A DNA stretch of 64,000 bases from Tetragonia tetragonoides (Eukaryota > Streptophyta > Magnoliopsida > Caryophyllales > Aizoaceae). The notes under the pieces are model-generated. The model made no database searches and was not told the origin of the DNA. It was given only the letters and a program-made list of their open reading frames with translations. The stretch covers positions 51,564,807 to 51,628,806 of the forward strand of contig CM076139.1 of NCBI GenBank assembly GCA_038025085.1, written 5' to 3'. The translations under genes were made by a program, and so were the position numbers. This document shows positions 28,505-64,000 of this stretch, one piece after another (within the stretch, counting starts at the first letter, position 1; each line of letters opens with the position of its first letter).

Positions 28505-28599
28505 GAGCAAAGTTTCATCAACATATTGCTCACCGACACACACGCAGAGAAAGAAAGTGGTTTTAGTTTCTCCTCACAGAGATGGCAACGTCCTTTGGT
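27545..28599 (+). pseudogene. Relic NLR unit: upstream region plus first six codons
   Basis: 27550-27610 repeats the block GACCGGGCAA(A/T)TGGAAACC found upstream of NLR-A, -B and -C. At 28561-28599 the leader GGTTTTAGTTTCTCC is followed by ATG GCA ACG TCC TTT GGT, the same first six codons as NLR-B. Coding similarity stops exactly there, where a MITE begins at 28600, and nothing of the rest of the NLR is seen behind it. Unit B holds the same relic at 51347-51364, so it predates the segmental duplication. Confidence 0.7.
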
Positions 28600-28744
28600 T
28601 CCCCCTTAACTTGATCTTAACTACTGTCCTCTTTGTCTCTCTCTCTCTCTCCTCTCTTTCTCTCTCTGTTATCATGTTTGTCCCCATCATTTCCTATAAA
28701 ATCCCAAACAAGAGGGCAATAGCTAAGATCAAGTTAAGACCCCA
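28600..28744. mobile_element. MITE abutting the relic NLR start
   Basis: CCCCCTTAACTTGATCTTAA at the left and AGATCAAGTTAAGACCCC at the right are inverted arms of about 35 bp, enclosing a CT-rich core. It starts immediately after codon 6 of the relic. The unit B copy is about 51365-51509. Confidence 0.7.
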
Positions 28745-30388: not shown

Positions 30389-30512
30389 CCAACTTTAAGA
30401 TTTTAGGCTATGTCACACAAAAGAAGCGTGCTATTTCTCAATTTGGAAGAAACATTAGTGCTTAGTGCCAAATTAAGGCTCAAGATTGCACTTTCATAAG
30501 TAAGCTCAAAAG
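30389..30512 (+). pseudogene. ABCG transporter exon remnant upstream of NLR-A
   Basis: The sequence closely follows the ABCG fragment at 44507-44636 (CCAACTTTAA, GTATGTCACACAAAAG-like block, then GAAGAAACATTA and TTAGTGCCAAATTAAGGCTC), with small deletions that destroy the frame. The encoded region corresponds to the ABCG segment GYVTQKD...VEETLMFSAKLRL just after the Walker A exon part. The same remnant lies upstream of NLR-B and NLR-C. Confidence 0.8.
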
Positions 30513-30779
30513 GTATATTAAACTACTCAAATATGCACTTCAAATGTAATATGAAGTTGTAGATGGTCACTGCGCATCAAAGAGAAATATAGCCTATTTG
30601 TTTTCACATGTTTCGTACAACCAATCCCAGTCTTTACCCTGTCAAGGTGAGAGTTAGTGACCGTATAATGTTAATGTTAATGTTAATGTTAATGTGGACA
30701 TTGGTATAATCGCTGATGCAAGAGATGAAGGCTTGACAATCCTCCTTCAGATTCAAGAAATTCCACGGGAGCAACATTT

Positions 30780-30915
30780 TATAGGAGACCAATGATTTTC
30801 GGGTAAGTGAATATTTTTAAGAGAGTGTATAGGAGACCAATGTTTTATAAGAGAGTGTATAGGAGACCTATAAGAGAGTGTATAGGAGACCAATGTTTTA
30901 TAAGAGAGTGTATAT
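30780..30915 (+). repeat. Minisatellite in the NLR-A leader
   Basis: Tandem copies of a roughly 30-bp unit containing AGAGAGTGTATAGGAGACCA plus ATGTTTTATA. It lies 150-280 bp before the NLR-A ATG. Shorter versions occur at the same place before NLR-B (53185-53310) and NLR-C (61880-62010), with different unit numbers. A (TTAATG)n run at about 30670-30693 also varies among units. Confidence 0.75.
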
Positions 30916-31059
30916 ACATAAAGCTACAAAATATCAGTGGTTGTATAAGAAAGGAAACCCACATCCTCCAATAGCCTTATCACAATTCCATCCACAGAGT
31001 GGTTTTAGTTTCTCCACAACTGCCCAGAAACCCACAGAGAGACAGACAAACAGAGAGAG

Positions 31060-34000
31060 ATGACAGCGTCCTTTGCTACCGGTGTTGTTTCCGGAGTTGC
31101 TTCCAATGTTATTGCAAAACTGTTGGAATATGCTGCCGAAGAAGCTGTTAGACAGATCGCCCCCTACTTCGGTGGGGAAAGTAGGCTAAGAAAGCTTGAG
31201 CAGACAATGGTGATGATCCAAGCTCGGCTTGTGGATGCCGAAAGGCGGGGAGAAGGCGAGAATGAACAAGTGGTCAAGAAGTGGCTACAAAGTCTCAAGT
31301 GTGTACTCTATCGGTTAGAGGACTTGCTTGAAGTGGTCGCCATGGCTAATACCAAGAAGGAACAGATGCGTGGAGGTAAGCTCACCAAACCAGTTCGGCT
31401 TTTATTTTCAAGTTGTAGTTCTTTGAAAATTAATAAGAAAATGACCAAAGAGGCTAAGGCTATAATGGAAGAGATGGAAGCCATTACATCTCTTATGAAT
31501 AGCCTTCACTTTAGGGAGCTTCCCATCAATGAACGGCGTCGTGTAGTTGATGTGGACAGTAGTAGAGAAACACACTCTCTTGTTACAGAGGACATGATTG
31601 GCAGAGATGAGGATAAAAAGAAAATTATATCCATGCTTTTAGATTCTGAGATTGGCGGGGATAATGTTTCCGTGATCCAGATTGTTGGGATGGGTGGGTT
31701 AGGGAAGACTGCTCTTGCCAAACTCGTCTTTAATGATGATGTCGTTAAATCGAATTTCGAGCAAAGTTGGTGGGCTTGCATCTCTGACATCTCTAGCTTA
31801 AAAGAGCTTGCAGGAAAAATTCTTCAGGCTATAACCAGTGACAATTATCACCAATTAAACTTGGAGGAGATCCAATCTAATCTCCGTCAAGCGGTTAATG
31901 AAAAGAGATACTTGCTGGTATTTGATGACATTTGGGATGAGAACCAGAGGATTAGATGGCCTGATTTGAGGAGTTTTTTGTGCGGTGGTAAACAGGGAAG
32001 CAAAATAATTATAACTTCAAGGTCTAAAATAGTCGCCCTAAAGGTGGTTACAATTGAGCCCTTTGAGTTGGAAGGCTTGCCAGAGGACAAGTCTTGGGAG
32101 TTATTCAGACGACTAGCATTCAAAGAGGGACAAGAGGAGAGGAACCCATATCGGGCAGACATTGGTAGAGAGATCGTCAAGAAGTGTGCCAATGTTCCCC
32201 TCGCTATAAAGACTATTGCATCCCTTCTATTTTCGATGGATACCGATATAGAGTGGGAAACTTTCAGGGACAAGGACCTGGCAATGATAGAACAATCTAA
32301 AGATGATATTTTGCCGACTTTGAAGTTGAGCTACGACCGCCTACCATCAGAGTTAAAGCAGTGCTTTGCTTATTGTTCGTTGTTTCCGAAGGATCATAAC
32401 CTGTCGAAGAAGGAACTGATTTATCTATGGATGGCACAGGGGTTCCTTAGGTCATCGAGTGGACAAGAAAGCACAGAGGATGTTGGTCATGGATATGTCA
32501 TGCAACTCATGAGGAGATGTTTCTTTCAAGATGCTGAATATGACGTGTTTGGTGAGATTGGAGGCTGTAAGATGCATGATTTAATGCATGACTTGGCACA
32601 GCTTGCTGCAGATGGAGAAATTCTTTTGGTGGATGAGCCTACACAGAATATCAATGACAATGTTTTGCATGTGAACTTAGGTACCTCCTTGGTGAAGGCT
32701 CCATCAAGGTTGCTTGATGTTAAGCGAATTCGATCTTTTCTGAGCCTACATCCGAATTTTCGAATTTCGAGTGAAGTCTTTTCAAGCTTGAAGTGCTTAC
32801 GTGCACTGTATTTGAAAGATTGTGATGAGCCTCTTCCAGATTCCTTAGGGGAGCTGAAGCACTTGAGGTATCTCAAACTTGATGGTGAGCTTAAGTCTCT
32901 CCCTGAGAGCATTACAGGGCTGCTGAATTTGGAGGCTTTGGATGTCTATTATTGTATTAAGCTTAAAGAATTGCCAAGGGGCTTCTGCAAATTGATCAAG
33001 CTTAGGGCTTTGGGTGTTCCTTGTTGGATTGATGATATGCCGCCTGGGTTCGGGCAATTAACGTCTCTGAGAGCACTAAGTATGTTTGTAGTGGGGGAAA
33101 GTACTGGGTTAAATGAACTGGTTACATTGAAGCACCTTGCTGGATTGTTGGAAATTAGATTTCTTAAATATTGTACGAATGCCTTCTCAGAAGCCATTGG
33201 TGGAATTTTGAAGGACACAGATAAATTTTCTATCTTTAAAATGGAGATTTGATGGCGGTGATGAGGAGGAGGAATCACTGAGAAGTTTGCAGCCCCCTCC
33301 ATCTCTCAAAAGGCTAGAAGTTTTGAATTGGATGGGAGTGAGGTTTCCAAGTTGGGGGATGGATGAGCTCCCTTGCTTGCTCTCCAACCTTGTTCAGATT
33401 AAATTGTATGGATTCAGGAGATGCCAACATCTGCCACAGTTGAGTCAACTGCCTCGTCTCAAGATTCTTGTTCTTGAAAAGCTTGATGCGTTGGAATACA
33501 TAGAGAGTCATGGTACTGAGAATAACCGTGACGCTTCTTCTGAAGCAGATGCAATAGAATACTTCCCATCTTTAGAGAGGCTGGAGTTGGAAGATTTGCC
33601 AGAACTTAAGAGATGGTCAAGAACTGAAGAGGAGGACGATACCAGTGGTAGTATTATTCATCATCATCCACAAAATGAGAAACATCACGTGCCCATGTTT
33701 CCACGTCTTTCTCATCTCGAACTATTGCAATGCCAAAAGCTGACGTGGATGCCTCTTGCGCCAAGGCTTGAGACACTAAACGCACATCACGTCCATGGGA
33801 AGGTTATAAAACATCTGCTGGAATTGGCATCTCCCACTCCGATGTCGTCTCTCCGGGATTTGAGACACATACCAGACTCGATTCAACATCTCACCCAGCT
33901 TCGTCAATTAACAATCTCTAGTAAATTGATGGCACTTCCAGAATCATTTTTTAACCTCGTCTCTTTAACAAAACTTGAAATCCGGGAATGTCCTACCCTG

Positions 34001-34471
34001 ATAGCACTTCCAGAATCAATTGGCAACCTCACCTCTTTACAACAACTCAAAATTGAAGATTGTCCTACCTTGGCTGGATTGCCAGAGTCACTTCGGAACC
34101 TCACCTCTTTACAATCACTTGAGATAGTGCGTTGTCCAGCGCTGGATAGAAGATGCGAGAAGCCTGATGGCCAAGATTGGCCCCTCATTCAACACATCCC
34201 CAATGTGGAATACATAGAGAGTCATGGTGGGAATAACAGTGACGCTTCTTCTTCTGCAGTTGCAGCAGACAGGGATTTTACTAATTTTCGAAAAAATGTA
34301 GCATTTTTATTGCCATTTGTTGAGGTAGAATTGAGAAGTTTACAGCCCTCTCCATCTCTCAAAAGGCTAACAGTTGGGTATTGGAAAGGAGTGAGGGTTC
34401 CAAGTTGGGGGATGGATGCAAGAAGCCTGATGGCCAATATTGGCCCCTCATTCAACACATCCCCAATGTGA
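31060..34471 (+). pseudogene. NLR-A: CC-NBS-LRR resistance gene broken by a frameshift
   Basis: Intronless CNL-type immune receptor gene. The first frame (31060-33252) gives 730 aa: a CC domain with RLEDLLEVVAMANTKKEQ near residue 90, then NB-ARC with P-loop GMGGLGKTALAK, kinase-2 LLVFDDIWDE, RNBS-B GSKIIITSRSK, GLPL-type NVPLAIKT, RNBS-D CFAYCSLFPKD, MHD motif KMHDLMHD and early LRRs. Compared with NLR-B, two bases are missing near 33218-33222, so the frame ends at TGA 33250-33252. The remaining LRR region continues in another frame to 34471. The tail beyond 34200 contains a second partial copy of an LRR segment (SLQPSPSLKRL...SWGMD) and of the C-terminal block, absent in NLR-B. A truncated CC-NB protein could still be made, but a full LRR receptor could not. 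Start chosen by alignment with NLR-B/C. Confidence 0.92.
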
Positions 34472-44636: not shown

Positions 44637-46785
44637 GTTACAGAGCGGCAAAGAAGGAGGCAAAGAAATCAGTAGCAGAAGCCAAAAGTAAAGCCTATGA
44701 GAGCTTGTATCAAAAATTGGCTACTAAGGAGGGAGAACAGGACGTTTACAGGTTGACGAGAGCTAGGGAGAGGAAGATTAGAGACCTGGACCAAGTTCGT
44801 TGCATTAAGGATGAGGTGGGACGAGTTCTGGTGGACGAAACAAACATCAAGAGGAGGTGGCATGGGTATTTCAATGAGCTTTTTAACAATGTTGGAGACG
44901 TAGACATTTCGTTGGGAGATCTTAGCACATCCGAGCAACACCGTAACTACAGCTTTTGTCGTCGTGTTACGAATGAAGAAATCAGAGGGGCCATGAGGAC
45001 GATGAAGAGTGGAAAGACAGTAGGACCAGACGAGATACCCATAGAGGTATGGAAGAGTTTGGGGGAGGTAGGTTTATTGTGGATAGTTAGGCTTTTCAAC
45101 ATGATCCTCAAATCTGCAAGGATGCCGGAGGAGTGGCGGCTCAGCACATTGATTCCTCTATACAAGAACAAAGGAGATATTCAAAACTGCAACAACTATA
45201 GAGGTATTAAGTTACTCAGTCACACCATGAAGCTATGGGAGAGAGTGATTGAGAAGAGACTGAGGAAGAGTACTCTTATCTCAGAGAACCAATTCGGTTT
45301 CATGCCAGGGAGGTCAACAACAGAAGCGATTCATCTGATTAGACGTTCTATGGAGTACTACAGAGATAGACAAAGGGACTTGCACATGGTTTTCATTGAT
45401 TTGGAGAAGGCGTATGACAGGGTACCTAGAGAAGTTATGTGGAGGTGCTTGGAATCCAAGGGGGTTCCAGTCGCCTATATCCGAGTGATTAAGGATATGT
45501 ATGAAGGAGTGAGGACTAGGGTCAGGACGACAGGAGGGGAAACTGAGCAATTTTCTATAGATATTGGGTTACATCAAGGGTCATTGTTGAGTCCCTTCTT
45601 ATTCGCAACCGTTATGGATGAGCTCACTAAGACTATCCAGGGGGGATGTGCCTTGGTGTATGTTGTTTGCCGACGACATTGTTTTGATAGACGAGACTAG
45701 AGAAGGTGTTAACGCCAAACTAGAACTTTGGCGGGATACACTAGAGTCAAAGGGATTTAAGTTAAGTAGGACAAAGACCGAGTACTTGGAAGGCAAATTT
45801 ACAAGAGATGGGGTTGCCTCGGATAGGGAGATTAAGATTGGTACTGAAGTGGTACCGAAGAGGGATTGTTTCAAATATCTCGGTTCAATCATACAGGGCA
45901 ACGACGAGATTGACGATGACGTGACTCATTGTATCAGAACAGGGTGGCTAAAGTGGAGGAGTGCAACGGGAGTTCTATGTGACAGAAAAATTCCACTAAA
46001 ACTTAAAGGCAAATTTTATTGTACAGCCATCAGGCCAGCTATGCTGTATGGGGTGGAGTGTTAGCCGGTGAGGCAGGTGCATGTGCAGAAGATGCGGGTG
46101 ACCGAGATGAGGATGCTTCGTTGGATGTGCAACTCTACAAGAAGAGATAGAATTAGGAACGAAGTGTTGAGAGACAAGGTGGGAATGACCGATATTGACA
46201 ACAAGATGCGAGAAACAAGGCTTAGGTGGCTTGGACATGTGAGGAGGAGACATCGAGATGCACAGGTGAGAAGGTGTGAGAGAATTACACTTAGAGATTG
46301 TAAACGAAGAAGAGGACGCCCGAAGAAGACGTGGGGAGAGGTAATCAGGCAGGATTTGACCCTTCTAGATCTTACCGAGGACTTGGTCCTAGAAAGGAAA
46401 TTATGGCGTAGCGGGATTCGTGTAGAGGATCCGCGTTAGATTAGGGTTGTGCATTGGCCAGTACTAGAGGTTGATTCATTTTGTTTATAGCATGTAGCGT
46501 CTCCTTCACTTTATGTTGCTCAATTAGTAGAATCTTGTGTTAATATGTTTACTGCTTTACTTCCCTTGCCCTTTTGATCATTCGTTTTGGCTTTAAAAAA
46601 AAAAAAAAACAGGCTTTTTGAAATGCATTTAAAAAAAAAATAAAATAAAATAAAATTTTTTGGGTCTTTCGGAAACAGTCTCTCTTCTAGGCGACTAGTT
46701 AGGAGTAAGACTGCGTACATCTGGACTTCCTCAGACTCCGCCCTAGACGGGATACCTACTGGCTTGTTGTGTGTGTTGTGTGGTG
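44637..46785 (+). mobile_element. RTE-clade LINE, 5'-truncated and inactivated
   Basis: Starts within the connector before reverse transcriptase ([20 protein letters not shown]), followed by [17 protein letters not shown], the RT core ([55 protein letters not shown]), the catalytic FADDIVLID, and the C-terminal region with RWLGHVRRR and RRGRPKKTW, ending at TAG 46437-46439. A frameshift near 45650 separates the RT core from FADD, and TAG at 46062-46064 replaces the Trp usual after GVEC. The 3'UTR carries the CGGAAACAGTCTCTCT and ACTGCGTACATCTGG motifs and TGTTG-rich end typical of plant RTE LINEs. The endonuclease domain is absent. Confidence 0.88.
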
Positions 46786-47061
46786 AAGTTACTGATGCAT
46801 GAGCTAGGGCTAGAACAGGTGGCAGGAACCCGAGTTGGCAACGAAGCAAACATTTTTATACTACCCACAAAAAATTAAAGCAAACCCAACAATCAGCAAT
46901 ATCTCAATTTCTCCGGGGACCAAAGTCAATTAAACAATTTATCAGTATGAAACCTAAAATCATGTCAAAAATGATCAACATGATCATGAATTTCAGACAA
47001 GTTACGCGTAGGGAATTTAAAGGGTAATGAACGGAATGAGAGAGTGAGAGAAAGAGAATAC

Positions 47062-47160
47062 CATAAAGACGATAAACGACTGGTGGTGAAGGAGCACCGC
47101 AGTTGCTGAGTTGAATTGATGCTCGGCAGAAAATGCTGAATTTATCAGTGCCACCCCTTG
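47062..47160 (-). pseudogene. Orphan HDA14 5'UTR exon and promoter
   Basis: Near-identical to the HDA14 first exon at 22000-22100, with the splice donor ATG|GTATTC intact at 47062/47061. No HDA14 coding exon follows; about 200 bp downstream on this strand the sequence becomes LINE DNA in antisense. If active, the promoter would transcribe across the LINE and ABCG remnant from the opposite strand. Confidence 0.75.
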
Positions 47161-48733
47161 TTATGGTTGGAAAGCAAATAAACTCCAAACAGCCCCAAAA
47201 TAAAAGGGTAAGTGGGAAAAACAGTGGAGGTAAATTTAAAAAAAAAAATTACAAATAAAAAAAAAAAAAAGTATTCAATATTGGAAATGAGATGAGCTGG
47301 ACTGATAATTATTTAAAACTCGTCCAAATATATTTAATACTAGATATGAAACCCGTGCGTTGTACGGTTTATGTGTTAATTTTTTAAAATAAATACACTC
47401 ATATGAGGATTGAAGTATGTTGACAATTTCACTCCGGTTGTTTGGATTCGTGTTGGACATGAAGATAATCTTGTGCATTACAAGGTTTAGTGAAAAGTTT
47501 ATATTCAATATTTTCAGTGATATGCATATATGCACCAATTGAAAAATAAAATAAAATTGCCACAATCTCTTTGTTTTTCTTCTACATTTGTCATTATTTT
47601 ATTAAAACTTTTGAAGCAATTTTTTTCCTCTTATGTGATGCTCTATGGATTATTAAACGTTGTTAAAACTCTACAACTTATAAGTCAAGCTCTTTTGTCA
47701 TCCTAAACTTTAATTATTTGTGAACTTTACATGTTCGTTTATGTGGCGATATGCTACTGGCCGGAGGCTAAGTAGTTCTTCATATTTTTGAAATAATTTG
47801 TCAAAATGACATATATTATTTGCTATTTTGTATCATAGTTTTATACTTGTATATAATATTTAGTGGAATTAGCGTTGTATACTAAGTTAATCTGAATCGC
47901 TCCTTTCCATTCTGCATTGCATCTCATTTTGTATTTTCTTTTTTATCACATTCTGTGTGTCCATTATGTCATTTTGTTCCGTTATCTTTCATGTCATTTT
48001 ATTCTGTTCTGTTTTGTTCTGTTTTACACTATTTCGTTGAAAAGAACAGGACCTTGGGATTTGTTCTTTTCACCTCAAAAGCTACAAAATACCTAATATT
48101 ACAACTTAATAACACCAGAAAATACCTCCTTAATTTTATATCTTATAATTATAACTTATTCTTTAATTGTCCCAAATGATTTAATTGTCCCAAATGATTA
48201 ATTGCTATAACTTCAATATTTTCTCTTATTCTATATTCAATTTATGTTATATTATTAATCGTTAATTTTAGTGTCTCGCTAAGTATTATGGAGTGACATG
48301 CATGGAGTAGGGAAAAAGAAGGAAAAAAAAAGAAACAGAAAACAAGAACGTTAATGTTGTACAACCGTGTCATAGAGTAGTAGAAATTCAATATGATATT
48401 CCCTCAAATAGATAAATAAAAAAGTTCAATGTAGTATTTGTTTCACATTGTCACGGAAGACTGGAGTTAGTGATTTTAGACATTTTATTTTTTTAATTCT
48501 TTAATCTAAGAGACTTGCTTAGGTGGACACGTTTAATGCTGTCAGAAAAATATCTTTTTTATATAAAAAAAAAAAAAACCTCATTAGCATAAGTAAACGG
48601 AATTTTTTTTTAAAAAATGTAGCAAGTATAGGAATCATGATAGTTAATCACAAGTGATTTATCGAGGCTGCTTATTCTATATCACTTGCTCAATGATCTA
48701 TAGAGCATATACAGTATAATCCATGAACAGTAA

Positions 48734-48915
48734 GGCCCTGTTCTTTTCGTCGATTTCATGCTGCATTTCGTTCCGTTCCGTTCCAATCCGTTCCATTCCG
48801 TTCCGCATTCTGTACTTCATTTTGTCTCACATTTTTTTTAATTATCCGCGTCGCGCCGTTCCGTTCTGTTTCGTTCCTCACTGTCCCGCACCATTCCGTT
48901 GAAGAGAACAGGGCC
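48734..48915. mobile_element. Tourist-like MITE with TTCCG repeats, unit B copy
   Basis: TAA at 48731-48733 and 48916-48918; ends GGCCCTGTTC / GAACAGGGCC. Orthologue of 25350-25541 with fewer TTCCG units. Confidence 0.85.
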
Positions 48916-49559
48916 TAAGTGAGAGCACTATTAATTGTTAAGTTTTCCATTTAGTTGACACCAAAAGATCTCCATCTTTTACTTTGTATTAGTTGCCATT
49001 TTCAGACAATAAAAAAGATCTTTGAGGTGACATAGCTCCAATGAACTCGTTTACGTGTACGCACCCTATGCTGTCAGAAAATGCCTCCAGATATTATGAT
49101 TATGATTATAATTGGGCGCTCCATATGCTCCTGTGAAATGGCAATGCATAAGATATATAAAAAAATGGGTCTTGTTTTAAAGTGCGTGTCACGATCTTTT
49201 CATTGGTGTAAGATATTTGAATTTTTGAAATATGAAACAAAAGTAACACCGTTCTTAATGTTTTATTACCTTCAATGATTTACTGCCATAACTCTTATAT
49301 TCTCTCTTTCCTTAACTTTTATTTATGATTTATTATTGTTATTTTTTTTTAAAAAAAGGTTCACTTAGGTAGACGTGTCCAATGCTGTTTGAAAATGTCT
49401 CCAATATATAGATATTATGATTATGATTAGACTTTATTTGGAAATATGTTTTGAAATCTTTTCAATGACATAGTGTTATAATCATGAATTTATTTCAAAA
49501 TAAAAGATTATATGAGCAATAAAGTTACATATAAACTGAATTTAATTGAATTAAACTAA

Positions 49560-49746
49560 GACCCTATTCTCTTCAACGGAATGGTGCGGGACGGTGAGGA
49601 ACGGAACGGAACGGCGCGGCGCGGCGCGAATAATATAAAAAAATGGGAGACAAAGTGAAGTACAGAATGCAGAACGGAATGGCGCGGAACGGAACAGATT
49701 AAAACCGAATGAAATGTTGCATGAAAACGACGAAAAGAACAAGGCC
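49560..49746. mobile_element. Tourist-like MITE with GGAAC repeats, unit B copy
   Basis: TAA at 49557-49559 and 49747-49749; left end mutated to GACCCTATTC, right end GAACAAGGCC. Orthologue of 26194-26379. Confidence 0.85.
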
Positions 49747-50670
49747 TAAGCTGAATTAAAGTGAAATTGAGTTGAGAAGAACAAAGCCAGATTAAGGTTG
49801 ACCCACTTTCATCTTTAGGTCGTGGCCGACTACATAAAAATACAGTGATCCATTTGACAGGACATCAATAATTTTGACCCATATTGAGTAAATATGGACA
49901 CGAGTATACCCTATTTTCTCAAACTTTTTTTTAGTGAATTTTATGATGACATTGTTGTTAGTGAAGTGAACTCCTTTTTACTAAATTTCATATAATAAAG
50001 AAAGCAAATTTACACTATTTTTTTTCTTTTTGATTTGTACTTCTTTTTCAAAGTGAACTTCACTTTAATGAACTAAAATGAAATTAGTGAACTGAATTTT
50101 ACTAAGGGTATCTTCAATGGAAAGTTTTTATAAAGATTCAATGGAGGTGGGATAAGGATTTTAAAAGTCAAATTACTATCATGCCCCTTAAAAATTACTG
50201 CAGATTTTGTCTCCTCTTTTATTTAATGACATTTTGGTAAACTAACTTTACAATCCCCAATCTATTCCCTAATCTAATACCCACATAAACATGGTAATGG
50301 GATTAACAATACAAATTTCCTATCCACTCAACACACAAATCCAACCCCATCTCTATAGTTCCACAATCCCATTCCCCCTTGCCAAACGCCCTCTAGAGAT
50401 TTATAAAAATAAGGTTTTTAAATTATGACATGGCATAGAAAAAAGTCTCCTTAACACTTTGTAGCATTGGAGATGCTCTAAAAACTATATGAAGAAGTTC
50501 CAATACTTCCAAAGATTAAAAGCCTAAAGCACATATCTTTCTTGGTCTTTTTAGATATAAATCAGTGCCGGTGAGGTTTCTATATGTTTGGTTGTTGTTA
50601 TAATATATTTGGTGTTTGGGGCACTGACTACTGAGTAAGCAAGTGAGCACTACATCCTCATTAAAGACTA

Positions 50671-51130
50671 GAGAAAATTGGCCAAAATCCCCAAGATCTT
50701 TACACTTTTTGATAAGAACACCCAAAAAAAAAAAGTTTGTCAAGAACCCCCAAACTAAATGAAAAAGCTGTGGTTTTACCCCCAAGCAGTACTGTTCCGG
50801 GCAAATGAAATTTTTTTGGACTGTTTTACCCTCACGTGCTATGCACGTGTTTCACTTAATGAAAATTGATTTTTTTTATTTTTTATTTTTTTACTCCATC
50901 TCTCTTTCTCTCAACCGACCAATTTTCAAAAAAAAAAAAAAAAAAAAAAATTCAATTGAAACTCGTGCTCTGCACGTGAGGGTAAAACGGTCCAAAAAAA
51001 ATTTCATTTGCCTGTTGGGGGTAAAACCACGACTTTTTCATTTAGTTTGGGGGTTCTTGACAAACTTTTTTTTTTCTGGGTGTTCTTATCAAAAAGTGTA
51101 AAGATCTTGGGGGTTTTGGCCAATTTTCCC
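50671..51130. mobile_element. Mutator-type MITE with long inverted repeats, unit B only
   Basis: A perfect 9-bp duplication TAAAGACTA (50662-50670 and 51131-51139) flanks a 460-bp element whose arms of about 165 bp are inverted repeats (GAGAAAATTGGCCAAAATCC against the complement of GGTTTTGGCCAATTTTCCC). The empty site, a single TAAAGACTATCATG, is seen in unit A near 28237. The inner part has GTGAGGGTAAAACGG and A/T-runs; no coding region. Confidence 0.93.
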
Positions 51131-51346
51131 TAAAGACTATCATGAAATATTGTCTCCAACTTGGGTTAACCATATCACATCACATATAGTACATGACATG
51201 GCTAGTGGGTCCTGGGCAAAAAAGCCATTGTATTTAATAGAGTACTACGAAGAAAGAAAGAAAGAAAGAGAGCAAAGTTTCATCAACATATTGCTCACCG
51301 ACACACACGCAGAGAAAGAAAGTGGTTTTAGTTTCTCCTCACAGAG

Positions 51347-51364
51347 ATGGCAACGTCCTTTGGT
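51347..51364 (+). pseudogene. Relic NLR start codon region, unit B copy
   Basis: ATG GCA ACG TCC TTT GGT followed directly by a MITE (about 51365-51509). Identical in layout to 28582-28744 in unit A. Confidence 0.7.
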
Positions 51365-52799
51365 TCCCCCTTAACTTCATCTTAGCTACCGCCCTCTTTG
51401 TGTCTCTCTCTCTCTCCTCTCTTTCTCTCTCTGTTATCATATTTGTCCCCATCATTTCCTATAAAATCCCAAACAAGAGGGCAATAGCTAAGATTAAATT
51501 AAGACCCCACTTTAATTTCTTAGCGTGATAGACAAAGAGAGGAGTTTGGGTTCCAATTGTGGAAGGAGGGAATTAGAATTAGGGTGATGTCTTTTGGAGG
51601 GAGCTATGTTGGGTTTCATTAAGGGCAAAATGGAGAATTCAAAGAGGGCTAACGAAAAATCATAAAGGAGTAGACAGAATAAACATTGAAATTTTTTAAG
51701 GATATTCTCTAGATTTTATTATATGTTTTGGGCACGCATTGAAAAAGTCATAACCACAAGGGCACCAATTGGAATTCCACTATATTTAATAAAACAAGTT
51801 ACAAGAAGTTTATATTTGTGCATCTTTACTGCCTACCATATCTAAGTCTACAACAAATCTCAAAAAGTGATTGAGATGGAGTATCTTTTTCTCTCTTGGA
51901 CATCGAAATTTCAAATGTTCAATATGAATGTTGTTTGTTAAATTAGTTTGGTTAAACCTTTCATCGATTTTAAACTGATTGTGATTCACGTTTTAAGTAT
52001 TCTGAGTAGATTATCTACTGATCAGATAAATTTATTTTTGATATTTTGATCATCCACCATCAAGAGTAAGTATTGTGTGAAACTAACTTACATTAAAATG
52101 ATATCACTTTCCAGAAATTTGTTATTTTAGATAAAAAAAGTATTTGGGAAAATATTGTGACAAAAATATTTGCGTTGAGTAATTTCAAATTTACGTTTAG
52201 TAATTCTGAAAAAAAAAAAGAAAGTCTCAAAAAGGGAAAAGAGCCAAAACTAAAAGGACCCATTTGGTCTGATGTGAGAATTGAGATTGACCGGGCAATT
52301 GGAAACCAGCGGCAAGCGAGACAAGCAGCGCGTTGATGGAGGTGGAGCCACATCCACCCAAACCAAAAACAATCGCTGAAGAAAAGAAAAGTAAAAGATT
52401 GAAATTAAGACAATTTCGTGCAGCTGAGGGTGTTTACATTACAGTAAATTGAAAGGTCAGTCTTTTAATTAGCTTTTCAAATTGCATGATTTGTATCCAT
52501 CTATTGTCATTAATTATTATTTGAGCCCTTTATGTAAATAAAGTTTTCATCTTTTGTTTTTCACTTATTACAGCAAGAAAAATCCTGATGAACTTCATGA
52601 AAATTGGTGGGATTTGTCATTTTTTTTTTGGGATGAAATCTAGCTAAATTATCACAATTCAGCATATTACAGACCCTGACAAGAAGACATATGTACTTAG
52701 TTTCTATGCTTTAAGAAAAAGAAAAAAAAAAGAATTGGAAGGGTGTGCATAAAGCCATAGAAAATATGTGACATGTCATCCATCATGCCATTGAAAATG

Positions 52800-52922
52800 C
52801 CAACTTTAAGATTTTAGGCTATGTCACACAAAAGAAGTGTGCTATTTCTCAATTTGGAAGAAATATAAGTGCTTAGTGCCAAATTAAGGCTCAAAATCCC
52901 ACCTTCATAAGTAAGCTCAAAA
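52800..52922 (+). pseudogene. ABCG transporter remnant upstream of NLR-B
   Basis: Same decayed ABCG segment as 30389-30512 (CCAACTTTAAGATTTTAGGC to TTAGTGCCAAATTAAGGCTC), frame destroyed by small indels. It lies about 530 bp upstream of the NLR-B start. Confidence 0.8.
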
Positions 52923-53456
52923 GGTATATTAAATTACTCAAATATGCACTTTAAATGTAATATGAAGTTGTAGATGGTCATTGCGCATCAAAGAGAAATA
53001 TAGCCGATTTGTTTTCACATGTTTCATTCGTACAACCAACCTCGGCCCTTACCCTGCCAAGGTGAGAGCTAGTGGCCGGATAATGTTAATGTTAATGTTG
53101 ACATTGGTATAATCGCTGATGCAAGAGATTAAGGCTCGACCAATCCTCCTTCAGATTCAAGAAATTCCACGGGAGCAACATTTTATAGGAGACCAATGCT
53201 TTATAAGAGAGTGTATATTTTTAACGTTTTCTGACCAATGATTTTCGGGCAAGTGAATATTTTTAAGAGAGTGTATAGGAGACCAATGTTTTATAAGAGA
53301 GTGTATATACATAAAGCTACAAAATATCAGTTGTTGTATAAGAAAGGAAACCCACATCCTCCAATAGCCTTATCACAATTCCATCCACAGAGTGGTTTTA
53401 GTTTCTCCACAACTGCCCAGAAACCCACAGAGAGACAGACACAGAGACAGGAGGAG

Positions 53457-56400
53457 ATGGCAACGTCCTTTGGTGTTGCTTCCGATATTCTTTCTGGTGT
53501 TGCTTCCGATCTTATGATACAAGCTGTTAGACAGGTCGCCCCCTACTTCGGTGGGAAACGTAGGCTAAAAGAGCTTGAGCAGACATTGCTGATGATAAAA
53601 GCTGGGCTTGCTGATGCCGAGAGGCGGGGAGAAGACGAGAATGAACAAGTGGTCAAGGAGTGGCTACAAAGTCTCAAGCGTGTACTCTATCGGTTAGAGG
53701 ACTTGCTTGAAGAGGTCGACATGGCTAATACCAAGAAGGAACAGATGCGTGGAGGTAAGCTCAGCAAATCCGTTCGGCTTTTATTTTCAAGTTCTAGTCC
53801 CTTGAAAATAAATGAGAAAGTAGCCAAAGAGGTTAAGGAAATAATGGAAGAGATCGAAACCATTAATTCTCGTAAGAATAGCCTTCACTTTAGGGAGCTT
53901 CCCATCAATGAACGGCGTCCTGTAGTTGATGTGGACAGTAGTAGAGAAACACACTCTCTTGTTACAGAGGACATGATTGGCAGAGATGAGGATAAAAAGA
54001 AAATTATATCCATGCTTTTAGATTCTGAGATTGGCGGGGAAAATGTTTCCGTGATCCAGATTGTTGGGATGGGTGGGTTAGGGAAGACTACTCTTGCCAA
54101 AGTCGTCTTTAATGATGATGTTGTTAAATCGAATTTCGAGCAAAGTTGGTGGGCTTGGATCTCTGACATCTCTAGCTTCAAAGAGCTTGCAGGAAAAATT
54201 CTTCAGGCTATAACCAGTGACAATTATCAACAATTAACCTTGGATGAGATCCATTTTAAGCTCTATCAAGCGGTTAATGAAAAGAGATACTTGCTGGTAT
54301 TGGATGACATTTGGGACGAGGACCTAATCAGATGGCTTTATTTGAGGTTTTTTTTCCGCCGTGGTAAACAGGGAAGCAAAATAATTATAACTTCAAGGTC
54401 TAAAATAGTCGCCCCAAACGTGTTTACAGTTGAGCCCTTTCAGTTGGAAGGCTTGCCAGAGGACAAGTCTTGGGAGTTATTCAGACGACTAGCATTCAAA
54501 GAGGGACAAGAGGAGAGGAACCCATATCGGGCAGACATTGGTAGAGAGATCGTCAAGAAGTGTGCCAATGTTCCGCTCGCTATAAAGACTATTGCATACC
54601 TTCTATTTTCGATGGATACCGATATAGAGTGGGAAGCTTTCAGGGACAATGACCTGGCAATGATAGAACAATCTGAAAAGTATATTTTGCCGACTTTGAA
54701 GTTGAGCTACGACCGCCTACCATCAGAGTTAAAGCAGTGCTTTGCTTATTGTTCGTTGTTTCCGAAGGATCATAACCTGTCGAAGAAGGAACTGATTTAT
54801 CTATGGATGGCACAAGGGTTCCTTTGGCCATCGTATAGACAAAGCCCAGATGATATTGATCATGGATATTTCATGCAACTCATGAGGAAATGTTTCTTTC
54901 AAGATGCTGAATATGACGATTTTGGTGAGATTGAAGGCTGTAAGATGCATGATTTAATGCATGACTTGGCACAGCTTGCTGCAGATGGAGAAATTCTTTT
55001 GGTGGATGGGCCTACACAGAATATCAATGACAATGTTTTGCATGTGAACTTATGTACCCCCTTGGTGAAGACTCCATCAAGGTTGCTTGATGTTAAGCGA
55101 ATTCGATCTTTTCTGAGCCTACATCTGAATTTTCGAATTTCGAGTGAAGTCTTTTCAAGCTTGAAGTGCTTACGTGCACTGTATTTGAAAGGTTGTGATG
55201 AGCCTCTTCCAGATTCCTTAGGGGAGCTGAAGCACTTGAGGTATCTCAAACTTGTTGGTGAGCTTAAGTCTCTCCCTGAGAGCATTACAGGGCTGCTGAA
55301 TTTGGAGACTTTGGATGTTCATTTTACTGAGCTTAAAGAATTGCCAAGGGGCTTCTGCAAATTGATCAAGCTTAGGCATTTGGATGTTCCTGTAAGGATT
55401 GATGATATGCCGCCTGGGTTCGGGCAATTAACGTCTCTGAGGGCACTAAATATGTTTGTAGTGGGGAAAAGTAATGGGTTAAATGAACTGGTTAAATTGA
55501 AGCACCTTGCTGGACCGTTGGAAATTGAATTTAGTAAATATTGTACGAATGCCTTCTCAGAAGCCATTGGTGGAATTTTGAAGGACACAAAGGTAAATTT
55601 TCTAGCTTTAAAATGGGATGAAGAAGGCGGTGATGAGGAGGAGGAATCACTGAGAAGTTTGCAGCCCCCTCCATCTCTCAAAAGGCTAAAAGTTTCGTAT
55701 TGGAAAGGAGTGAGGTTTCCAAGTTGGGGGATGGATGAGCTCCCTTGCTTGCTCCCCAACCTTGTTGAGATTGACTTCTATGGATGCAGTAGATGCCAAC
55801 ATCTGCCTCCGTTGAGTCAACTGCCTCATCTCAAGACTCTTGTACTTCGGGATCTTGGTGCCTTGGAATACATAGAGAGTCATGGTACTGAGAATAACCG
55901 TGACGCTTCTTCTGAAGCAGCCGCAATAGAATACTTCCCATCTTTAGAGAGGCTGGAGTTGAAAGATTTGCCAGAACTTAAGAGATGGTCAAGAACTGAA
56001 GAGGAGGACGATACTAGTGGTAGTATTATTCATCATCATCCACAAAATGAGAAACATCACGTGCCCAAGTTTCCACGTCTTTCTCATATCGAACTATTGA
56101 ACTGCCAAAAGCTGACGTGGATGCTTCTTGCGCCAAGGCTTGAGACACTAGACGCACATCTGCTGGAATTGGCATCTCCCACTCCGATGTCGTCTCTCCG
56201 GGATTTGAGACACATACCAGAAGTGAATCGTCAATTAATAATCTCTAGTAAATTGATGGCACTTCCAGAATCATTTTTTAACCTCGTCTCTTTAACAAAA
56301 CTCGAAATCCGGGAATGTCCTACCTTGACAGCACTTCCACAGTCAATTGGCAACCTCACATCTTTACGAAAACTCCAAATTATAGATTGTCCTGCCTTGG

Positions 56401-56552
56401 CTGCATTGCCAAAATCATTTCCTAACCTCACCTCTTTACAATTACTTGTGATAAGGAAATGTCCAGAGCTGAAGAGAAGATACGAGAAGCCTCATGGCCA
56501 AGATTGGCTCCTCATTCAGCACATCCCCAATGTGAACTTTGAAGAGGATTGA
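53457..56552 (+). CDS. NLR-B: full-length CC-NBS-LRR (RGA-like) resistance protein
   Basis: Intronless CNL, 1031 aa, a cytoplasmic intracellular immune receptor that detects pathogen effectors. CC domain residues 1-125 with EDVID-like RLEDLLEEVDMANTKKEQ. NB-ARC: P-loop GMGGLGKTTLAK (about 203-214), RNBS-A FEQSWWAWISD, kinase-2 LLVLDDIWDED (about 279-289; the Trp is typical of the CC class), RNBS-B GSKIIITSRSK (about 306), GLPL-type NVPLAIKT (about 371), RNBS-D CFAYCSLFPKD (about 427), MHD KMHDLMHD (about 495). Irregular LRRs run from about 540 to the end (for example LPDSLGELKHLRYLKL, LPESFFNLVSLTKLEI). The open frame extends upstream to 53238, but the ATG at 53457 aligns with NLR-A and NLR-C and follows the shared leader. 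All motifs look intact, so this is the likeliest functional NLR here. Ligand specificity cannot be read from sequence. Confidence 0.95.
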   Translation: MATSFGVASDILSGVASDLMIQAVRQVAPYFGGKRRLKELEQTLLMIKAGLADAERRGEDENEQVVKEWLQSLKRVLYRLEDLLEEVDMANTKKEQMRGGKLSKSVRLLFSSSSPLKINEKVAKEVKEIMEEIETINSRKNSLHFRELPINERRPVVDVDSSRETHSLVTEDMIGRDEDKKKIISMLLDSEIGGENVSVIQIVGMGGLGKTTLAKVVFNDDVVKSNFEQSWWAWISDISSFKELAGKILQAITSDNYQQLTLDEIHFKLYQAVNEKRYLLVLDDIWDEDLIRWLYLRFFFRRGKQGSKIIITSRSKIVAPNVFTVEPFQLEGLPEDKSWELFRRLAFKEGQEERNPYRADIGREIVKKCANVPLAIKTIAYLLFSMDTDIEWEAFRDNDLAMIEQSEKYILPTLKLSYDRLPSELKQCFAYCSLFPKDHNLSKKELIYLWMAQGFLWPSYRQSPDDIDHGYFMQLMRKCFFQDAEYDDFGEIEGCKMHDLMHDLAQLAADGEILLVDGPTQNINDNVLHVNLCTPLVKTPSRLLDVKRIRSFLSLHLNFRISSEVFSSLKCLRALYLKGCDEPLPDSLGELKHLRYLKLVGELKSLPESITGLLNLETLDVHFTELKELPRGFCKLIKLRHLDVPVRIDDMPPGFGQLTSLRALNMFVVGKSNGLNELVKLKHLAGPLEIEFSKYCTNAFSEAIGGILKDTKVNFLALKWDEEGGDEEEESLRSLQPPPSLKRLKVSYWKGVRFPSWGMDELPCLLPNLVEIDFYGCSRCQHLPPLSQLPHLKTLVLRDLGALEYIESHGTENNRDASSEAAAIEYFPSLERLELKDLPELKRWSRTEEEDDTSGSIIHHHPQNEKHHVPKFPRLSHIELLNCQKLTWMLLAPRLETLDAHLLELASPTPMSSLRDLRHIPEVNRQLIISSKLMALPESFFNLVSLTKLEIRECPTLTALPQSIGNLTSLRKLQIIDCPALAALPKSFPNLTSLQLLVIRKCPELKRRYEKPHGQDWLLIQHIPNVNFEED

Positions 56553-59502: not shown

Positions 59503-62155
59503 TATGATGTTCTATCTAATTCTTTATTCTGCAATCAAGTAGTTACTCTATAAGAACTTGATGAACCTTAACTTTTTAGGTAAGAAAATGACAGATTTAA
59601 GTTAATCTTCCGAGTTCTAGCTTTTCGAGGTTCATCATATGCGATTTATCCCTTATAGATCAATAAAAAGAAGGTTATGCTCCTTTCTTTTCGCTTGAAA
59701 TCATCTGAATTGATTTAAAGTGGATTTTTTCAACCTACATTTAAACATTTAAAACTCGTTCAAACATATTTAATATTGAACTTATTTGAAAGTATGTGTA
59801 TGTTGTGAAATCTTTCCAATGACATAATTATCGTCATGAATTTATTTTGGAATAACAGTTATCTGAATGATAAAGTTACACATGAACTAAACTGAATTGA
59901 TCCAAAGTGAAATTAACTTGAGAGATAAAGATTGACCCACTTTCATCTTGAGTAAGGGATTTGGCCCGAAAATCATGTGCTTAAGGGGTGAGTCTCAACG
60001 CGAAATCAAGGTGATACTGAATAAAAATCAACAATTCAGAGAATACTGGACAAAAAGTGAAACTTTTTAGATGGTTTTTACCAAATTGTGTTATTTTTTT
60101 TTATAAAAAAAACAGCCCGCCCACCATAGAACGTTCTTATGCTAACTAATAAAAAAGATACAACAATATTTTCGAAAAATGCTTTATGTACCCCCCGTGG
60201 GCCACTAAGTAATCTGCCAATGTAATGTTTATATTTTACTTAATATATTTAATAAAACAAGTTACATGAAGTTTATATTCGTGCAATCTTTACTGCCTAC
60301 CATATCTAAGTCTACAACAAATCTTCACTCAAAAAAAGTCTACATCAAATCTCAAAAAGTGATTGAGATGGAGTATCTTTTTCTCTCTTAGACATTGAAA
60401 TTCCAAATGTTTAATATGAATGTTGTTTGTTAAATTAGTTTGGTTAAATCTTCATCGATTTCAAAGTGATTATGATTCACGTTTTGAGTACCCTGAGTAG
60501 ATTATCCACCGACTAGATAAATTTATTTCTGATACCTTAATCGCCCACCACCAAGAGTAAGTATTGTGTGAAACTAACTCACATTAAAATGATATCACTG
60601 ATAGAATTGTAGTGGTCACTAATTATGTACAGTGACCCTAGCTAAGTTATGATAAGACCATACAAGTTTTTTGTGTAACAAAAAAAACTAAAATAAAACA
60701 CAGGACCATGTGGCTCAAAGTGTCAAACAAAGTCAACAAGTGGTTGGTGTGATTAGTTCGACAATGTCATCCCTTAAGTAACGTCAAGACTTCGAATCTT
60801 GTCAATGGAAAAGTTATTAGTGAGAACACTTTATCCTTTCGTTGCCGATTTAGTGCGAACATGACTAATCATGGCTCAAAGAGCTTAGGTCAACCTATGT
60901 TAAACCAAAAAAAAAAAAATCTCAAAAAGAGAAAAGAGCCAAAACTAAAAGGACCCATTTGGTCTGATGTGAGAATTGAGATTGACCGGGCAATTGGAAA
61001 CCAGCGGCAAGCGAGACAAGCAGCGCGTTGATGGAGGTGGAGCCACATCCACCCAAACCAAAAACAATCGCTGGAGAAGAAAAGAAAAGTAAAAGATTGA
61101 AATTAAGACAATTTCGTGCAGCTGAGGGTGTTTACATTACAGTAAATTGAAAGGTCAGTCTTTTAATTAGCTTTTCAAATTGCATGATTTGTATCCATCT
61201 ATTGTCATTAATTATTATTTGAGCCCTTTATGTAAATAAAGTTTTCATCTTTTGTTTTTCACTTATTACAGCAAGAAAAATCCTGATGAACTTCATGAAA
61301 ATTGGTGGGATTTGTCATTTTTTTTTTGGGATGAAATCTAGCTAAATTATCACAATTCAGCATATTACAGACCCTGACAAGAAGACATATGTACTTAGTT
61401 TCTATGCTTTAAGAAAAAGAAAAAAAAAAGAATTGGAAGGGTGTGCATAAAGCCATAGAAAATATGTGACATGTCATCCATCATGCCATTGAAAATGCCA
61501 ACTTTAAGATTTTAGGCTATGTCACACAAAAGAAGTGTGCTATTTCTCAATTTGGAAGAAATATAAGTGCTTAGTGCCAAATTAAGGCTCAAAATCCCAC
61601 CTTCATAAGTAAGCTCAAAAGGTATATTAAATTACTCAAATATGCACTTTAAATGTAATATGAAGTTGTAGATGGTCATTGCGCATCAAAGAGAAATATA
61701 GCCGATTTGTTTTCACATGTTTCATTCGTACAACCAACCTCGGCCCTTACCCTGCCAAGGTGAGAACTAGTGGCCGGATAATGTTAATGTTAATGTGGAC
61801 ATTGGTATAATCGTTGATGCAAGAGATTAAGGCTCGACCAATCCTCCTTCAGATTCAAGAAATTCCACGGGAGCAACATTTTATAGGAGACCAATGCTTT
61901 ATAAGAGAGTGTATATTTTTAACGTTTTCTGACCAATGATTTTCGGGCAAGTGAATATTTTTAAGAGAGTGTATAGGAGACCAATGTTTTATAAGAGAGT
62001 GTATATACATAAAGCTACAAAATATCAGTTGTTGTATAAGAAAGGAAACCCACATCCTCCAATAGCCTTATCACAATTCCATCCACAGAGTGGTTTTAGT
62101 TTCTCCACAACTGCCCCAGAAACCCACAGAGAGACAGGTACAGAGAGAGAAGGAG
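59503..62155. other. Start of partial unit C and NLR-C upstream region
   Basis: 59.5-59.66 kb completes the unit B 3' flank. About 59.8-59.96 kb matches the 26.05-26.45 kb block of unit A without its MITE. From about 60235 the sequence follows 29370 onward (unit A) and 51783 onward (unit B) up to the NLR start. At about 60650-60920 there is a unit C-specific insertion with a box-B-like GACTTCGAATCTTG and an A-tail, possibly a SINE. No intact gene. Confidence 0.6.
61499..61620 (+). pseudogene. ABCG transporter remnant upstream of NLR-C
   Basis: Essentially identical to 52800-52922. Its presence before all three NLR genes shows the fragment was captured before the cluster expanded. Confidence 0.8.
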
Positions 62156-64000
62156 ATGGCAACGTCCTTTGGTATTGTTTCTGGTGTTGCTTCCAATGTT
62201 ATTGAAAAACTGTCGGAATATGCTGCCAAAGGAGCTGTTAGCCAGATCGCCCCCTACTTCGGTGGGGAAAGTAGGCTAAAAGAGCTTGAGCAGACATTGG
62301 AGATGATACAAGCTCGGCTTGCTGATCCCGAGAGGCGGGGAGCAGACAAGAAGTGGCTACAAATCATCAAGCGTGTACTCTACCGGTTAGAGGACTTGCT
62401 TGAAGAGTTCGCCATGGCTAATACCGACAAGGAGCAGATGCCTGGAGGTAAGCTCACCAAATCCGTTCGGCTTTTATTTTCAAGTTCTAGTCCCTTGAAA
62501 ATAAATAAGAAAGTGACCAAAGAGGCTAAGGCTATAATGGAAAAGATGGAAGCCATTACATTTAGTATGAATAGTCTTGGCTTTAGGGAGTCTCCCATCA
62601 ATGAACGGCGTCGTGAAGTTGATGTGGACAATGTGGACAGTAGTAGAGAAACACACTCTCTTGTTACAGAGGACATGATTGGCAGAGATGAGGATAAAAA
62701 GAAAATTATATCCATGCTTTTAGATTCTGAGATTGGCGGGGAAAATGCTTCCGTGATCCAGATTGTTGGGATGGGTGGGTTAGGGAAGACTACTCTTGCC
62801 AAACACGTCTTTAATGATGATGTCGTTAAATCGAATTTCGAGCAATGTTGGTGGGCTTGCATCTCTGACATCTCTAGCTTAAAAGAGCTTGCAGGAAAAA
62901 TTCTTCAGGCTATAACCGGTGACGATTATCACCAATTAACCTTGGAGAAGATCCAATCTAACCTCCGTCAAGCGGTTAATGAAAAGAGATACTTGCTGGT
63001 ATTGGATGACATTTGGGATGAGAACCAGAGGATTATATGGCCTGATTTGAGGAGTTTTTTGTGCGGTGGTAAACAGGGAAGCAAAATAATTATAACTTCA
63101 AGGTCTAAAATAGTCGTCCCAAACGTGGTTACAGTTGAGCCCTTTGAGTTGGAAGGCTTGCCAGAGGACAAGTCTTGGGAGTTATTCAGACGACTAGCAT
63201 TCAAAGAGGGACAAGAGGAGGGGAATCCATATCGGGCAGGCATTGGTAGAGAGATCGTCAAGAAGTGTGCCAATGTTCCGCTCGCTATAAAGACTATTGC
63301 ATCCCTTCTATTTTCGATGGATACCGATATAGAGTGGGAAGCTTTCAGGGACAAGGAAATAATGGAAGAGATCGAAACCATTGCATCTCTTATGAATAAC
63401 CTTCACTTTAGGGAGCTTCCCATCAATGAACGGCATCGTGTAGTTGATGTGGACAGTAGTAGAGAAACACGCTCTCTTGTTACAGAGGACATGATTGGCA
63501 GAGATGAGGATAAAAAGAAAATTATATCCATGCTTTTAGATTCTGAGATTGGCGGGGAAAATGTTTCCGTGATCCCGATTGTTGGGATGGGTGGGTTAGG
63601 GAAGACTACTCTTGCCAAACTCGTCTTTAATGATGATGTCGTTAAATCGAATTTCGAGCAAAGTTGGTGGGCTTGCATCTCTGACATCTCTAGCTTAAAA
63701 GAGCTTGCAGGAAAAATTCTTCAGGCTATAAGGCCTATAACCAGTGACAATTATCACCAATTAAGCTTGGAGGAGATCCAATCTAACCTCCGTCAAGCGG
63801 TTAATGAAAAGAGATACTTGCTGGTATTGGATGACATTTGGGATGAGGACCAGAGGATTAGATGGCTTGATTTGAGGAGTTTTTTGTGCGGTGGTAAACA
63901 GGGAAGCAAAATAATTATAACTTCAAGGTCTAAAACAGTCGCCCAAAACGTGGTTACAGTTGAGCCCTTTGTGTTGGAAGGCTTGCCAGAGGAGAAGTCT
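62156..64000 (+). CDS. NLR-C: CNL with two tandem NB-ARC modules (3' end outside window)
   Basis: Open without a stop for 615 codons to the window edge. Residues 1-130 are a CC domain (MATSFGIVSGVASNVIEKL; RLEDLLEEFAMANTDKEQ). Module 1: P-loop GMGGLGKTTLAK (about 205), kinase-2 LLVLDDIWDEN (about 280), RNBS-B, GLPL-type NVPLAIKT (about 374), ending in EWEAFRDK (about 400) before RNBS-D and MHD. The frame then runs straight into KEIMEEIETIASLMNNLHF, a segment that normally ends the CC domain, followed by a complete second entry: GRDEDKK, P-loop (about 477), kinase-2 (about 555), RNBS-B and on. The junction is near 63353-63357. Small in-frame indels distinguish it (+3 codons VDN; +3 codons RPI; 6 codons missing in the CC). 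The ATG at 62156 follows the conserved leader. It may encode an unusual CC-NB-NB-LRR receptor or be a recombination by-product; the remainder must be seen. Confidence 0.88.
   Translation, partial: MATSFGIVSGVASNVIEKLSEYAAKGAVSQIAPYFGGESRLKELEQTLEMIQARLADPERRGADKKWLQIIKRVLYRLEDLLEEFAMANTDKEQMPGGKLTKSVRLLFSSSSPLKINKKVTKEAKAIMEKMEAITFSMNSLGFRESPINERRREVDVDNVDSSRETHSLVTEDMIGRDEDKKKIISMLLDSEIGGENASVIQIVGMGGLGKTTLAKHVFNDDVVKSNFEQCWWACISDISSLKELAGKILQAITGDDYHQLTLEKIQSNLRQAVNEKRYLLVLDDIWDENQRIIWPDLRSFLCGGKQGSKIIITSRSKIVVPNVVTVEPFELEGLPEDKSWELFRRLAFKEGQEEGNPYRAGIGREIVKKCANVPLAIKTIASLLFSMDTDIEWEAFRDKEIMEEIETIASLMNNLHFRELPINERHRVVDVDSSRETRSLVTEDMIGRDEDKKKIISMLLDSEIGGENVSVIPIVGMGGLGKTTLAKLVFNDDVVKSNFEQSWWACISDISSLKELAGKILQAIRPITSDNYHQLSLEEIQSNLRQAVNEKRYLLVLDDIWDEDQRIRWLDLRSFLCGGKQGSKIIITSRSKTVAQNVVTVEPFVLEGLPEEKS

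Follow-up and report, generated by a model that had tools for sequence, protein, structure and literature searches.

The 64,000-nucleotide stretch of the Tetragonia tetragonoides genome analysed here (the window; G000:C1:51564807-51628806 of a 752.8-Mb, 27-contig assembly) carries at its 3' end a gene of the nucleotide-binding leucine-rich repeat (NLR) receptor family, NLR-C, in which a coiled-coil (CC) domain is followed by two consecutive NB-ARC modules in one reading frame, and farther upstream its two single-NB paralogues NLR-A and NLR-B (Table 1). That the frame of NLR-C is open from its ATG through the CC and both NB-ARC stretches to the window end, as an earlier note on this DNA had stated, is borne out by open reading frame and Pfam analysis (615 codons in the window), and beyond the window (L021 of the assembly, G000:C1:51626000-51635999) it stays open as far as its stop codon at the window-equivalent of position 66313. 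An end or break of the gene soon after 64000 is dismissed, as neither stop, frameshift nor gap interrupts the frame before 66313.

The 1385-amino acid product consists, in this order, of an Rx-type CC domain (Rx_N, PF18052, 36.7 bits with a cut-off of 27.7), two NB-ARC stretches (PF00931), a WH_DRP domain and leucine-rich repeat (LRR) families. Module 1 matches profile positions 2-220 of 248 and thus comprises the nucleotide-binding domain (NBD) and ARC1; module 2 is a complete NB-ARC (3-247 of 248), which is followed by a full winged helix (PF23559, 1-71 of 71), by MHD-type motifs at residues 775 and 779 and by LRRs (PF23598 and PF25019, both over cut-off), such that the elements to be sought past 64000 are all in place. 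The earlier note was right that module 1 has lost ARC2 and the MHD motif, but had it end in the GLPL region, whereas it passes beyond this motif through ARC1. Module 1 alone is not a complete switch of the STAND (signal transduction ATPases with numerous domains) type, composed of NBD, ARC1 and ARC2 with MHD; the sole WH_DRP stretch of the protein lies behind module 2. P-loop, kinase-2, GLPL and MHD are used here as the customary names of these motifs. The conserved NB residues are kept at 57 of 63 positions in module 1 and at 58 of 62 in module 2. In a structure model of the protein encoded within the window, the fold of module 1 is predicted with confidence up to about residue 400. With more than one-third of this model at low confidence, its Foldseek matches have low TM-scores (by query, 0.21-0.36 among the 50 matches listed).

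With an Rx-type CC, a complete NB-ARC with ARC2/winged-helix domain (WHD) and MHD, and LRRs, NLR-C has all features of a CC-NB-LRR receptor (CNL), and since two NB-ARC stretches follow each other in a single frame after the CC and before the LRRs, it falls into the class CC-NBS-NBS-LRR (CNNL; NBS, nucleotide-binding site). A first NBS without ARC2 and MHD ahead of a complete second one is shared with the Bph9/BPH18 type; the degenerate P-loop and missing GLPL of the first NBS in that type are not found in module 1, where GMGGLGKTT and NVPLAI are intact, and the gene is therefore classed as CNNL only. In its anatomy NLR-C is thus a full CNL with one additional NBD-ARC1 unit placed ahead of the switch, behind the CC.

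Table 1. Features of the NLR-C locus and its paralogues (window coordinates; residues refer to the 1385-amino acid NLR-C protein)
Feature	Position	Strand	Basis
CNNL gene NLR-C, one open frame on to stop at window-equivalent 66313 (1385 aa)	62156..64000	+	
CC domain (Pfam Rx_N, residues 12-94)	62189..62437	+	
NB-ARC module 1 (NBD + ARC1, residues 178-400; no ARC2/MHD)	62687..63355	+	Pfam, predicted fold
P-loop module 1, GMGGLGKTT, residues 205-213	62768..62794	+	
Kinase-2 module 1, VLDDIW, residues 282-287	62999..63016	+	
GLPL-equivalent module 1, NVPLAI, residues 373-378	63272..63289	+	
NB-ARC module 2 (residues 451-696), ends at window-equivalent 64243	63506..64000 in window	+	
P-loop module 2, GMGGLGKTT, residues 477-485	63584..63610	+	
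Kinase-2 module 2, VLDDIW, residues 557-562	63824..63841	+	
WH_DRP (residues 711-783), MHD (775-781), LRRs	outside window, 3' of module 2	+	
Duplicated block, copy 1 (CC-NB linker to end of ARC1)	62528..63357	+	
Duplicated block, copy 2 (to window-equivalent 64182)	63353..64000 in window	+	
Join, 5-bp microhomology AAGGA, end of ARC1 / CC-NB linker, codons K400/E401	63353..63357	+	
NLR-B, intact single-NB paralogue, 1031-aa CNL, like re-entry side of join	53457..56552	+	
NLR-A, single-NB paralogue, frame broken in LRR part	31060..34471	+	
5' flank of NLR-C, 99-100% identical (ungapped columns) to NLR-B flank (52802 on)	61500..62076	+	

The join and its parents

The two copies of the duplicated block are 93.3% identical over 839 columns with 18 gaps and overlap by five bases, which start exactly at the position that the earlier note had named as the join. 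The 5' parent at this point is the end of ARC1, GACAAGGACCTG in NLR-A, the 3' parent is the CC-NB linker, GTTAAGGAAATAATGG in NLR-B, and the joined product reads GACAAGGAAATAATGG. As AAGGA stands in the same codon phase in both parents, the product was immediately in frame. When a 200-base probe across the join was compared with the genome (40 matches scored of 50 candidates), a single match of the 40 spanned the join, namely the window itself; nearly all others were confined to bases 1-105 or 101-200 of the probe, with one covering bases 10-109, and the two match families share only bases 101-105, AAGGA. The join therewith looks like a microhomology-joined event rather than an assembly overlap.

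Between the modules 56 aligned columns differ (38 substitutions and two 9-bp indels), which rules out a repeated read or a plain self-copy; over the NB block 1 synonymous and 19 non-synonymous changes were counted (synonymous divergence dS 0.007, non-synonymous divergence dN 0.036). The NB block of module 1 is 97.0% identical to NLR-A and 94.6% to NLR-B, and directly after the join (63357-63377) lie four sites at which module 2 equals NLR-B and module 1 equals NLR-A. In a tree of 49 NB rows NLR-C falls within the window's own cluster, and its module 1 groups with NLR-A (98/80) and not with its module 2, which fits exchange between paralogues, though few sites are concerned. Exchange between paralogues thus appears more likely than simple copying within one gene, on few sites. 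The origin by in-frame recombination that had been proposed for NLR-C is well supported by the exact in-frame join, the 5-bp microhomology and the cluster of near-identical paralogues.

The final 105 bases of module 1 (63253-63357) are identical to those of paralogues on C9 and C11 and 98% identical to the neighbours NLR-A and NLR-B, a hint of conversion between chromosomes or of a common ancestry of these copies.

Two-NB receptors in other plants and in this genome

The earlier expectation that CNLs have one NB-ARC holds for the large majority, with 273 of 327 rows of a domain scan (326 proteins, including the window's P0001, plus the full NLR-C protein) showing plain CC-NB-WHD; on the other hand, a two-NB class is known and named, and it includes cloned rice genes. 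BPH18, BPH26 and Pib all have the CC-NBS-NBS-LRR layout, with a first NBS that lacks ARC2 entirely and ARC1 in part, and two NBS are said to occur in four of 480 japonica NBS-LRR genes (PMC5041133). Pib has CC, NB-ARC1, NB-ARC2 and LRR, the order also found in NLR-C, with introns interrupting the NB-ARC domains (PMC4917536), and its P-loops are called unconserved and its first NBS partial in the BPH18 paper (PMC5041133). Two NB domains are also described for PibH8 (PMC12533315), a Pm40 candidate (PMC8508864) and an NLR considered for Rwt4 (PMC10027608). A search of NLR catalogues, as had been suggested, finds the CNNL architecture in several plants: four CNNL genes are tabulated for sunflower, five for Gm (soybean), two for Br (Brassica rapa) and one for Ca, while the other columns consulted list no such gene (PMC6115920), and among the Eucalyptus CNNL models two are named as differentially regulated (PMC4709456); these share the architecture code of NLR-C and are catalogue entries only.

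The closest likeness is to rice Bph9, BPH18 and BPH26, which combine CC, a partial first NBS without ARC2, a complete second NBS and LRR in one protein (PMC5041133, PMC10419156, PMC10707318) and are cloned resistance genes. While NB1 of BPH18/26 has a non-consensus P-loop, no GLPL and an incomplete ARC1 (PMC5041133), in NB1 of NLR-C the P-loop follows the consensus, a GLPL-type motif is present and ARC1 is complete; BPH18 is furthermore encoded by three exons (PMC5041133), NLR-C by one uninterrupted frame with a recent duplication. Receptors with a two-NB layout are rare, but resistance genes cloned from rice have it, and NLR-C is therefore a fresh, unusually clean example and not a new kind of receptor. 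Complete at the sequence level, it adds one more CNNL gene to those described, with an unusually intact first NBD-ARC1 and an origin that is resolved.

The protein searches list the best 120 of 4815, 6279 and 5837 matches, such that counts are no census. In the domain scan 11 rows were 'NB-NB'. Two of these (FULL and P0001) are NLR-C itself, and four (P0004, P0167, P0218 and P0278) were rejected, their stretches abutting or overlapping and looking like one NB split by the program. In the remaining five database proteins (P0142, P0145, P0168, P0006 and P0020) no CC or WHD lies between the NB stretches; P0006 and P0020 are less sure, as the Dionaea protein P0006, with a foreign stretch after module 1, which keeps 50 of 62 conserved residues, and the Persea protein P0020, the start of which is incomplete, may owe their two NBs to fused gene models. 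Not of the same design are the rows in which a CC or WHD separates the two NBs (16 CC-NB-WHD-CC-NB-WHD, plus a few variants).

The metagenome proteins P0145, P0142 and P0168 (JGI) are NB-NB-WHD-LRR with both P-loops intact like NLR-C, with a CC in P0142/P0145 and none in the available sequence of P0168. By eye, the seam of P0168 lies at the residue matching that of NLR-C (EWLKFQT / vs EWEAFRD /; 193 vs 194 residues after the P-loop), with re-entry 73 vs 78 residues before the next P-loop, whereas the seam of P0142/P0145 lies about 39 residues farther on. One ancient CNNL lineage is rejected, as the 49-row tree pairs each protein's own modules for P0168, P0006 and P0020, with P0142/P0145 going back to one older event. 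The module tree shows the NB-NB fusions as separate events, one of them shared by P0142 and P0145, and the duplications in these two and in P0168 as separate from that in NLR-C.

In the same genome, NLR-C (L001) is the only one of 20 loci close to its protein, on both strands, with two P-loops in one frame, and in a genome NB-ARC search (124 of 466 candidates scored, read row by row) several NB-ARC matches in one frame occur only in NLR-C and in a minus-strand frame on C16 (G000:C16:37827650-37830826; L026 2151-5327). The latter has 1059 codons with three NB-ARC units and one WH_DRP, units 2 and 3 sharing 223 of 225 residues; separate LRR frames (PF23598, below cut-off in the second of them) lie downstream, which implies an intron or break between. 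As in NLR-C, the seams between NBD-ARC1 units, placed by eye, lead from where ARC1 ends into the linker before the next NB, and the last unit is complete with WHD; unlike NLR-C there are three modules, and no Rx_N is among the 25 Pfam rows shown of 30. As the C16 frame is not among the 72 matches of the NLR-C protein, it belongs to a more distant NLR lineage.

These cases raise the idea that in plant NLRs the NBD-ARC1 unit behaves as a cassette which has been duplicated again and again, with separate lineages, two of them in this genome with two and three modules, stacking P-loop-intact units ahead of the switch by cuts near the ARC1/ARC2 border; should the extra unit bind nucleotide, such receptors would have gained a nucleotide site free of MHD, which tunes CC release or builds an enlarged resistosome. 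We regard this reading as quite unlikely. The scan selects a nearly complete NB1 without WHD, and the shared seam is thus partly built in, with BPH18 showing that other seams exist; since such seams are favoured, their recurrence is a lead and not a statistic.

Possible roles of the extra unit

Beyond sequence, frame, join, domains and paralogue relations, which can be read off directly, roles of the two modules can be proposed by analogy to rice Bph9. The MHD motif of ZAR1, located on the winged helix (ARC2), is required to bind ADP and holds the receptor in its closed state, and NBD and HD1 (ARC1) stabilise bound ATP (PMC8813719); in Bph9 the CC is restrained by NB2, NB1, which has no ARC2, exerts no restraint, and the LRR activates (reviews PMC10419156, PMC10707318). 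We consider it probable, with some reserve, that NLR-C is a very recent CNNL receptor which arose by in-frame microhomology duplication, with module 2 as the switch and module 1 as an insert or modulator. An in-frame, microhomology-joined duplication of CC-NB linker, NBD and ARC1 within a cluster of recombining CNL paralogues would have created the gene; the second NB-ARC with ARC2/MHD together with the LRRs would be the ADP/ATP switch which restrains and releases the CC; and the first NBD-ARC1 would form a folded insert between CC and switch, which may bind nucleotide by its intact P-loop, kinase-2 and GLPL-type motif. As module 1 lacks MHD and cannot lock ADP, it would not be a second switch but may serve as a spacer, or modulate the release of the CC or the geometry of an oligomer.

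Several points weigh against this proposal. Both NBs of Bph9 are reported to be essential for resistance, which counts against NB1 as a mere spacer (PMC10419156, PMC10707318), and given the degenerate P-loop and missing GLPL of NB1 in BPH18/26 versus the intact NB1 of NLR-C, the analogy may not carry over. Module 2 of the window-cut protein is poorly modelled (pLDDT 25-47 per block). Sites splitting NLR-A from NLR-B farther from the join are mixed (two the same way, one opposite), the majority of differences being confined to a single module. The dN/dS ratio in the recent cluster (NLR-A, NLR-B and both NLR-C modules) is 1.6-5.1, on small numbers and near neutral, so that neither module has so far shown signs of purifying selection in the time after they were fused. 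Relative to 15 older paralogues, taken from outside the cluster on both strands (L001, L002 and L007 being NLR-C, NLR-A and NLR-B; L006 and L019 dropped for having no clean end), dN/dS is 0.18-0.39 for both modules.

Rather unlikely, in our view, is that NLR-C is a very young functionless recombinant, a by-product of unequal exchange in the NLR cluster bound to decay or be lost. The very low module divergence, with its single synonymous change over the NB block, would suit such a fate, as would the near-neutral changes (among 39 codon changes private to one copy in the cluster 5 are synonymous, binomial 0.15, and among the 20 that separate the modules 1 is, 0.06, assuming 20.7% synonymous sites; a separate count gave 145/690) and the already broken frame of the neighbour NLR-A, but the 1385-amino acid frame has no stop or frameshift and keeps the motifs in both modules, and the older fusions of the same design in P0142/P0145 (module identity 76-78%) retain both modules intact. 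Decay of module 1 itself is ruled out, its conserved columns being kept as in the paralogues.

The dual-nucleotide switch put forward in the earlier note has lost ground and is now improbable. In such a receptor both NBDs would bind nucleotide and take part in oligomerisation, which would shift the threshold for activation or stack the assembly. This reading can draw on the intact P-loop, kinase-2 and GLPL-type motifs of both modules, on the completeness in module 1 of NBD and ARC1, said to hold ATP in ZAR1, on the recurrence of the design with two intact P-loops in P0142, P0145 and P0168 and on the reported need for NB1 in Bph9; module 1, however, lacks ARC2/MHD, the ADP lock, and the CC of Bph9 is restrained by NB2 and not by NB1. 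An assembly artefact, with two genes joined in silico, is very improbable: near-identical paralogues and flanks, as present here, are where mis-joins happen, but the 10-kb locus contains no N, the sequence shared at the join is only 5 bp, judged far too short for an overlap join, and the join is in frame at a domain seam between modules that carry private differences. That NLR-C is a decoy or inhibitor, as also suggested before, with the extra NBD-ARC1 acting dominantly on neighbouring CNLs, is scarcely credible, since hetero-association is conceivable from the closeness of module 1 to the NB blocks of NLR-A and NLR-B but the protein is not truncated and its intact CC, ARC2, MHD and LRR sit badly with such a role.

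The young, clean join makes the single-NB NLR-B a natural control, and taking one module out of NLR-C would bring back the ordinary layout; what an additional NBD-ARC1 does in an NLR, a question studied in Bph9, whose NB1 is said to differ greatly from NB motifs, could be addressed with an intact unit in NLR-C. Domain-level NLR diversity can, as this case suggests, arise by in-frame microhomology joins in a recombining cluster.

The surrounding NLR array

The window contains matches between 29110-34207 and 51522-56534 (91.0%) and between 52210-54649 and 60907-63354 (94.1%), and 56244-57119 matches window-equivalent 66005-66880 (97.6%); to judge from these, NLR-A, NLR-B and NLR-C are parts of one recent segmental array. 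The 3' flanks of NLR-B and NLR-C are 99-100% alike (ungapped columns) over window-equivalent 66126-66671, and the gene bodies diverge, with 84-93% identity in windows from 62077 to 62652 and 45-88% from 64519 to 66125. A nested segmental duplication in pieces, 21774-34207 and 46844-56534, about 91-97% identical, bears NLR-A and NLR-B. NLR-A has two bases fewer than NLR-B in its LRR part, which splits the gene into frames of 730 and 394 amino acids. Between the NLR copies lie frames for a MULE transposase (37669-39372, minus strand), a plant mobile domain (35516-36736, plus strand) and a reverse transcriptase (44705-45700, plus strand), and at 4474-5181 a 16-bp tandem repeat, TCATCTCGTCAAAATC, of about 45 copies overlaps a repetitive 180-amino acid open reading frame.
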